A program made the translations under genes and the position numbers. A stretch of 64,000 bases of DNA from Alphaproteobacteria bacterium (GTDB lineage Bacteria > Pseudomonadota > Alphaproteobacteria > GCA-2731375): NCBI GenBank assembly GCA_016776605.1, contig JADHTB010000017.1, positions 23,274-87,273 on the forward strand. Reading direction: 5' to 3'. Under the pieces are notes generated by a model. The model saw nothing but the letters and a program-made list of their open reading frames with translations, was not told where the DNA came from and ran no database searches. Positions 44,391 to 54,100 of the stretch are shown here, piece by piece. Positions within the stretch are counted from its first letter, which is position 1, and each line of letters starts with the position of its first letter.

Positions 44391-44494
44391 TAGAGCAATT
44401 CCGAATTAATGAGAATCGCGAAGCGATTCTAAGTGATTGGAAAAATTGCTCTAATTCTAAAGATCTGAGCATTTTCAGAATGAAAATGCTCTAG
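44391..44494. repeat. 104-bp dispersed multi-hairpin repeat, copy 1
   Basis: 100/104 identical by eye to 53997-54100; contains AGAGCAATT..AATTGCTCT, AGAATCGCGAAGCGATTCT and GAGCATTTTC..GAAAATGCTC. Confidence 0.96.
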
Positions 44495-48896: not shown

Positions 48897-50498
48897 ATGG
48901 TTTTTGATCCCCGCATGCCGGCGCGGGAGGCCTGTGTGCTTGGCTATCAACTGGAACATTGGGCAGCCGAGACGCCCGATGAGATCGCCTTTATGTTCCA
49001 AGACGGCGAGCAATGGACCTGGGGCCAGGCCCTGGATCTGACCCGCCGCGCGGCCAGGGGGCTGGCCGACCGGGGCGTGAAAAAAGGCGATCACGTGCTG
49101 TCCTGGCAACCCAACAACAGAGAAGCGGTGCTGACCTGGTTCGGCCTTAACTATCTAGGCGCGGTCTATGTGCCGGTGAACACCGCCTACAAGGGCAATC
49201 TGCTGCAGCACGTGGTGCAGCTATCGGATGCCAGCCTGATGATCTGCCACGCCGATCTGGCGCCGCGCCTGGATGATATCGATACGGGATTGCTGCGCGA
49301 GGTGATCATTACCAATGGCGCGGCAGCGTTGGCGACGCTTGCCACGCACCCGGCAGCGGCATTGTTGCCCGATCAGGGCCTGGACGGAATGCCCGATCCG
49401 GTCGAGCCCTGGGATTGCCAATACATCATCTTCACATCCGGCACCACGGGGCCGTCCAAGGCGGTTTTGTCGTCCTATGTTCAGGGCTATGCCATGGGCC
49501 CGGAGGCCAGCAGCTACATCGATGGCAGGGACCGTATCCTGATCAATCTGCCGATGTTTCATGTCGGCGGCACGGTGTTCATGATCGTCACCCTGGCCAA
49601 TGGCGGCTCGTGCTATTTGGACAGCCATTTCAAGACCGATGCATTCTGGCCGACCGTGCGCGGCAACCAGATCACCATGACCTGCCTGTTGGGCGCCATG
49701 ATACCGTTCCTGTTGAAACTGCCCGCCGGCGACCAGGATCAGGCGCACCCCTTGAAAAAGGCGGTCTGTGTGCCCTGGAACGAGGACGCCATGGCCATGG
49801 GCCGGCGCTATGGCATCGACATGCGCACCACCTTCAACATGACGGAAGTATCCTCGCCCATGGTCTCGGATGCCTATCCGCCCGAGGCCGGCACCTGTGG
49901 CAAGCTGCGCCCCGGCGTGGAAGGCCGGGTGGTGGATGAGCACGATTGCCAGGTGGCGCCGGGGCAAACCGGCGAATTGATCCTGCGCACGGACCGCCCC
50001 TGGGCCATGAACCACGGCTATTACAAGAACCCGGACGCCACGGCCCAGGCCTGGCGGAACGGTTGGTTCCACACCGGCGATGGCTTCAAATATGACGCCG
50101 AGGGCTATTTCTATTTCGTCGACCGGATCAAGGATGCCATTCGCCGCCGGGGCGAGAACATCTCGTCGTTCGAGGTGGAAGGCGAGGTCACGGCCTTCGA
50201 CGCGGTGGGCGAGGCCGCCGCCATCCCCGTGCCCAGCGAATTGGGCGAGGACGAAGTGATGGTCGTGGTGGCGCCGGTACCGGGCCGGAACATCGATCCG
50301 CTGGCCCTGTTTCGCTTTCTGGAACCCCGCATGGCCCATTTCATGCTGCCCAGGTTCATTCGCATCGTCGCTGAATTACCCAAGACGCCGACCCAAAAGG
50401 TGCAAAAACACCTGCTAAAAGAGGCCGGCGTTACCCCCGACACCTGGGACCGCGAGGCGATGGGCATTACAGTGAAGCGGGAAAAGATCGGCGCTTAG
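48897..50498 (+). CDS. AMP-binding acyl-CoA synthetase (crotonobetaine/carnitine-CoA ligase-like)
   Basis: IIFTSGTTGPSKAVL; RRGENISSFEVEGEV. Confidence 0.92.
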   Translation: MVFDPRMPAREACVLGYQLEHWAAETPDEIAFMFQDGEQWTWGQALDLTRRAARGLADRGVKKGDHVLSWQPNNREAVLTWFGLNYLGAVYVPVNTAYKGNLLQHVVQLSDASLMICHADLAPRLDDIDTGLLREVIITNGAAALATLATHPAAALLPDQGLDGMPDPVEPWDCQYIIFTSGTTGPSKAVLSSYVQGYAMGPEASSYIDGRDRILINLPMFHVGGTVFMIVTLANGGSCYLDSHFKTDAFWPTVRGNQITMTCLLGAMIPFLLKLPAGDQDQAHPLKKAVCVPWNEDAMAMGRRYGIDMRTTFNMTEVSSPMVSDAYPPEAGTCGKLRPGVEGRVVDEHDCQVAPGQTGELILRTDRPWAMNHGYYKNPDATAQAWRNGWFHTGDGFKYDAEGYFYFVDRIKDAIRRRGENISSFEVEGEVTAFDAVGEAAAIPVPSELGEDEVMVVVAPVPGRNIDPLALFRFLEPRMAHFMLPRFIRIVAELPKTPTQKVQKHLLKEAGVTPDTWDREAMGITVKREKIGA

Positions 50499-50759
50499 AG
50501 CAGTTCCGGGCTATTGTGATCCATTTGATGGCGCCCCTAAGCCATTTGGGTAGGCGCGTTGCGCAGCGCGATGTGGTGCATCGGGCAAGCGGCGCAACGC
50601 ACCCAAATGGCTTAGGGGTGCCACCGAAGGCCGCTCACCAAGGCCCCGTGGCTGCGTTGCGGTTCTTGGACGATGCACCACATCGACCTGCAACCCGCGC
50701 CTACCCACGGGGCCTTGGTGGGCGGTCAAATGGTTCAGAATAGCCAGGAACTGCTCTAA
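50495..50759. repeat. 265-bp structured near-palindrome with 13-bp perfect termini and one hairpin per arm
   Basis: Termini TTAGAGCAGTTCC / GGAACTGCTCTAA; left hairpin 50534-50551/50601-50618 (18 bp); right hairpin 50636-50651/50705-50720 (16 bp); CGATGTGGTGCATCG at 50569-50583 and inverted at 50671-50685. Confidence 0.95.
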
Positions 50760-53996: not shown

Positions 53997-54100
53997 TAGA
54001 GCAATTCCGAATCAAAGAGAATCGCGAAGCGATTCTAAGTGTTTGGAAAAATTGCTCTAATTCTAAAGGTCTGAGCATTTTCAGAATGAAAATGCTCTAG
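53997..54100. repeat. 104-bp dispersed multi-hairpin repeat, copy 2
   Basis: Near-identical to 44391-44494. Confidence 0.96.

Follow-up and report, generated by a model that had tools for sequence, protein, structure and literature searches.

A two-armed palindromic repeat of Alphaproteobacteria with IS630-like ends and a three-armed fold maintained through compensatory substitutions

What is the long near-palindrome that fills the space between two enzyme genes in an alphaproteobacterium, and why should it keep its pairing while its sequence changes? The locus lies in a 64,000-nucleotide stretch of contig JADHTB010000017.1 (assembly GCA_016776605.1), referred to here as the window. A reading of the sequence alone had described a 265-bp inverted repeat at 50495-50759 with covarying hairpins, beginning at the stop codon of an acyl-CoA synthetase gene and ending shortly before phyH, and had proposed it as an undescribed structured element. 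Every feature named in that reading is present, including the placement, and the two 127-nt arms align without gaps and are 76% complementary (Table 1). The extent required revision: the palindrome is real, but its outermost T and A are target site, and the element proper is GAGC...GCTC, 50498-50756, lying between two TA dinucleotides. With the TA at either end the palindrome reads TA-GAGC...GCTC-TA and spans 263 bp, within which no open reading frame of at least 100 amino acids occurs.

Table 1. Coordinates of the element, its parts and its neighbours in the window
Feature	Position	Strand	Remark
Stop codon (TAG) of upstream CDS, AMP-binding (acyl-CoA synthetase-like) enzyme	50496..50498		
Left target flank T + TA	50495..50497	+	First base of element makes TA into TAG stop of AMP-binding enzyme gene
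Palindrome arms	50495..50621 and 50633..50759		
Whole palindrome including TA at either end	50496..50758		
IS630-type MITE proper, GAGC...GCTC, 259 bp	50498..50756	+	Covariance model matches 50496-50758
Outer stem / terminal inverted repeat, left half	50496..50527	+	
Outer stem / terminal inverted repeat, right half	50727..50758	-	
End repeat TTAGAGCAGTTCC	50495..50507		Complement at 50747-50759
Left hairpin, covarying stem	50529..50623	+	Perfect 18-bp core 50534-50551/50601-50618
Left-hairpin tip motif, GGGTAGGCGCG..GCG..GCGCGATG..CATCGGGCAAGC..GCAACGC in genus	50548..50600	+	Partly kept class-wide
GGGTAGGCGCG	50548..50558		Inverted copy 50696-50706
CGATGTGGTGCATCG	50569..50583		Inverted copy 50671-50685
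Junction linker CCGAAG between both hairpins	50624..50629	+	
Right hairpin, covarying stem	50630..50726	+	Perfect 16-bp core 50636-50651/50705-50720; tip has related motif on opposite strand
Right TA + target flank A	50757..50759	+	
Start of downstream CDS, PhyH	50783		23 bases beyond 50759

The element is not confined to this locus. The genome from which the window derives holds 16 full-length copies at 88-100% identity together with many partial ones, several of them at contig ends, and 10 of the 11 genomes of the genus, this one counted, carry the element, as do other members of the family. Insertion occurs in the context Y-TA-GAGC...GCTC-TA-R in all 16 copies inspected and in most of about 50 copies from the genus. 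The window locus is empty in two genomes of the same genus, where a query made of the joined flanks aligns straight through without the insert, and at a second locus one genome shows an empty site with a single TA. Together, the joined flanks and the single TA indicate that each insertion consists of the 259-bp element plus a duplicated TA. Half-elements also exist: forms of 161-184 bp retain intact ends around one hairpin only (loci L020 and L021, and 74897-75057 of contig C14 in the window genome), and the two-arm form dominates over them.

The placement beside a stop codon is a recurring one. By simple ORF calls, the border TAG terminates a flanking reading frame in 16 of 31 copies; stop codons make up 19-28% of the available YTAR or CTAG sites, and the element's share is about twice that. 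Such frequent landing in stop codons would follow from the target itself, because TAA or TAG is part of YTAR and insertion restores TAG through the first base of the element, so that insertions of this kind would be nearly harmless. At three loci (L017, L018 and L020), elements of 263 or 184 bp directly abut another GCTCTA-ended repeat with a CTAG border common to both, an arrangement that looks as if the end of one repeat had been the target for the other. A relative of the element in genome G015 (L144, 1-266) lies against an insertion sequence whose ends are CTAGCAGGCTGCTGAAAAAG; the junction is apparently the CTAG border of the element itself.

Candidates for the mobilizing enzyme emerged from the ends. 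The terminal inverted repeats are perfect over 13 bp in the window copy and extend as covarying repeats of about 28-33 bp in the family. In genomes of the same genus, two elements of about 1.05 kb (L345 and L355) carry a DDE_3 transposase (PF13358; NCBIfam NF033545, IS630 family), and their ends, C-TAGAGCATTTCCGA and C-TAGAGCGTGTCGTGGCTAATCAGATTCA, match those of the element at 23 of 28 and 26 of 28 positions, a level reached by none of 2000 shuffles. These ends start C-TAGAGC or C-TAAAGC, an end type shared with an annotated IS630 of Dinoroseobacter shibae. IS630 transposases are DDE enzymes of the Tc1/mariner type. The element is thus short, non-coding and multi-copy, with terminal inverted repeats, a TA duplication and empty sites, and shares its ends with autonomous elements of the IS630 family, which identifies it as an IS630-type MITE. 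The sequence-only reading had suggested looking for an associated transposase; a candidate occurs in the genus, but the window's own genome, a 93% complete draft, has no IS630/PF13358, PF13340 or PF01609 transposase, which may have left its copies stranded. Transposases of the IS5/IS427 type (PF13340, PF01609) were rejected as partners, since some in related genomes have the CTAG/TA target in common with the element but differ from it at the ends. An origin by internal deletion of the cognate insertion sequence was likewise rejected, because a covariance-model search of ten IS630 loci found no trace of the element body.

Distant elements carry several types of end, among them TAGAGC.., TATACCAAGG.., TAAAGCCC.., TAGCCCGCATTTCTCACC.. 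and TAGTGTGG... A second type could be connected to a transposase, as TATACCAAGGCTCGATGATAGG elements (of the TATACCAAGG type) match the end of an annotated IS630 of Rhizobium sullae at 24 positions, with no equal among 5000 shuffles. The TAGAGC and TATACCAAGG types therefore lead independently to IS630 transposases, and these two cases suggest that the ends may follow whichever IS630 transposase is available. For the TAGCCCGCATTTCTCACC and TAGAGCATGTCGCGG types a DNA search with 31-37 bases found no partner insertion sequence in plasmids; the TAGAGCATGTCGCGG type was recovered as an IS630 end by protein search. The end type TAGCCCG(C/G)ATTTCTCACC occurs at four loci (L319, L324, L326 and L327), for which no partner transposase was found.

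In the predicted fold, two hairpins are enclosed by a long outer stem, giving a three-armed, Y-shaped structure. Its folding energy lies far below that of shuffled sequences with both RNA parameters (z = -15.4) and DNA parameters (z = -16.8), with none of 200 shuffles as low in either case. Across 41 copies from the genus, pairing holds in 97.5% of cells, and double changes have occurred in 43 of the 97 pairs, as compared with 19.6 such pairs in shuffles (none of 500 reaching 43) and 8-15 when partners are slid. In a class-wide set of 37 mostly distant loci, 92.9% of cells are paired and 93 of the 97 pairs show a double change, in an alignment that takes one chosen strand per locus and was fitted to the model, a procedure biased towards pairing; its 1129 double-change cells compare with a maximum of 351 in shuffles and no more than 178 when partners are slid. 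When 19 distant elements were each folded alone, the outer stem and two hairpins were recovered in most. The three-armed fold is thus conserved by compensatory change, and the proposal that pairing is kept despite changing sequence is borne out by dozens of copies from many families. Neither outcome that would have spoken against the sequence-only reading was observed, as further copies are numerous and the covariation is strong.

The range of the family extends far beyond one genome. When the class was searched with the left hairpin, 14 of 289 genomes proved to hold relatives, Agrobacterium sp. MA01 and Thalassospira marina plasmids among them. These have the same architecture, with hairpin tips that are conserved and stems that are unrelated in sequence. 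With a covariance model, 36 of 386 alphaproteobacterial genomes gave matches, representing 29 of 275 genera; both counts are lower bounds, as only five candidates were scored per genome. Most matches are full length, at about 255-311 bp. In distant relatives the stem and end sequences have been replaced, while the Y-shaped fold and two hairpin-tip motifs are retained. The sequence-only reading was correct as to structure but had missed the transposable nature of the element, its TA duplication, its IS630 partner and this wide range.

Conserved pairing in a palindrome need not reflect selection, and a mutational origin must be weighed against it. Template switching or intra-palindrome correction during replication could maintain pairing by itself: quasi-palindrome correction is known to act on long near-perfect palindromes, the changes often come in blocks on both sides, and the strand symmetry of mismatches among distant copies fits a process acting on DNA. 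However, the bulge and internal-loop mismatches of the tip motifs are the same throughout the class, where correction should have erased them, the total length stays mostly near 263-273 bp, and the two-arm form prevails even though one-arm forms exist. We therefore regard a purely mutational account as unlikely, while still deserving of serious attention; replication-time correction may nonetheless contribute to arm matching, and part of that matching could come from palindrome template switching, as the sequence-only reading had allowed under within-arm gene conversion. Slightly less probable still is that the element is at heart a structured RNA, an sRNA or an mRNA-stability or termination element spread by transposition, with covariation reflecting selection on the transcript as argued for ERIC and NEMIS. 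The strong covariation and the frequent position directly behind a gene are consistent with this, as is the genus alignment, where, read on one strand, G-U pairs exceed A-C mismatches by 53:5 and 58:7 in the inner hairpins, with 32:35 in the outer stem, a pattern that would point to RNA or to single-stranded DNA. This bias is absent when the 19 distant elements are folded independently (115 versus 124 G-U pairs on the two strands, with energies alike) and flips between arms in the class alignment, and on these grounds an RNA function is not claimed. Orientation relative to the upstream gene is also evenly divided (11:11), no promoter-like site was found, and no Rfam family matched at threshold.

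A different mode of movement is suggested by the inverted pair of tip motifs, which in genus copies begin with GTAG before an imperfect hairpin, recalling REP/REPIN elements moved by RAYT, a Y1 tyrosine transposase. Of 14 other genomes searched, 9 have RAYT-like genes, and the window genome has several, on contigs C13, C25, C43 and C44. In distant copies, however, GTAG is replaced by CTAG, CAAG or TCAG, no element lies beside the RAYT loci examined (blast, E 0.01), and neither a TA duplication nor IS630-like ends would be expected of Y1 transposases. With the motif lost in distant relatives and RAYT present but unlinked, this origin is disfavoured and appears very improbable.

Comparison with described repeats places the element among, but apart from, several known kinds, of which RUP (IS630-Spn1), Correia, ERIC and CIR are the nearest (PMC2229807). 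RUP of Streptococcus pneumoniae, an IS630-Spn1 MITE, is likewise a small non-coding palindromic repeat with a TA target and IS630-matching ends, but it is 107 bp long and has been described in one species (PMC2229807). The present element, at 263 bp, has two arms, covarying stems and other end types, and occurs class-wide. CIR of Caulobacter and Brucella and Bru-RS are alphaproteobacterial intergenic palindromic repeats, and CIR has TA termini and two arms; both are shorter, at about 103-110 bp, and CIR has GANTC at the loop and no reported partner insertion sequence (PMC2229807, PMC2266754). IS711, which is associated with Bru-RS palindromes, duplicates the TA of YTAR (PMC2266754). An assignment to CIR (the Caulobacter CcrM-associated repeat, about 110 bp and lacking a closing outer stem; PMC2229807) was rejected, as the 263-bp element is closed by an outer stem and GANTC is not conserved in it. 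Correia/NEMIS and ERIC resemble it as TA-ended MITEs with strong hairpins that often lie beside genes, but differ in sequence and host, and pairing of their ends closes them into a stem-loop that lacks the two inner arms (PMC2229807). MITEPye1 of Paracoccus yeei is also an alphaproteobacterial MITE and forms a long stem-loop, but it is linked to IS1182-family ends and has 1-3 chromosomal copies in a single species (PMC11578231). REP/REPIN with RAYT share the inverted pairing of hairpin motifs and, in genus copies, the GTAG beside the hairpin (PMC3733652, PMC3116915); the present element differs from them in having no class-wide GTAG, a TA duplication and no RAYT linkage. In Rfam the best score was to MIR918, at 48 bits against the 268 required, and chance resemblance to a long hairpin most likely accounts for this and similar matches. 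No earlier description was found in the open-licence literature, though subscription journals may hold one.

A separate and more abundant repeat does resemble CIR, as the 263-bp element does not. Two copies of this 103-bp two-palindrome repeat, TAGAGCAATTCCGAATTAATGAGAATCGCGAAGCGATTC...GAAAATGCTCTA with GAATC/GATTC sites, lie in the window at 44391-44493 and 53997-54099, and its TAGAGCARTTCC occurs 197 times in the genome as compared with 0 for the reversed control.

MITEs are usually regarded as short-lived, lineage-bound remnants of transposons. The present element is very probably a non-autonomous MITE mobilized in trans by IS630-family transposases, whose two-hairpin scaffold would be kept for working or persisting in folded form while its ends drift or switch. 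Judging from the end matches, an IS630 transposase would bind the terminal repeats of about 28 bp and insert the element into the TA within YTAR, and the outer repeats would drift or switch to suit whichever IS630 is present. The scaffold, in turn, would be retained because an element able to fold, either as hairpin or cruciform DNA with both tip motifs exposed or as a folded transcript, would function or persist better; folded DNA with its two tips exposed is the most likely working form, and a folded transcript is possible. More tentatively, and with somewhat less confidence than doubt, we propose a single old non-autonomous lineage inherited as a shape: the three-way-junction scaffold and two tip motifs would be kept, the stems rewritten pair by pair, and the ends exchanged to parasitize successive IS630 elements, with the scaffold, as tip-recognized folded DNA or as folded RNA, working in transposition or persistence instead of being debris of an insertion sequence.

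Sequence and ends have turned over in this family while its fold has been kept in at least 29 genera of a single class, which points to a function of structure, whether of DNA or of RNA, in a MITE's life. An alphaproteobacterial repeat family thereby gains a specific candidate partner transposase and a covariance model for its annotation.
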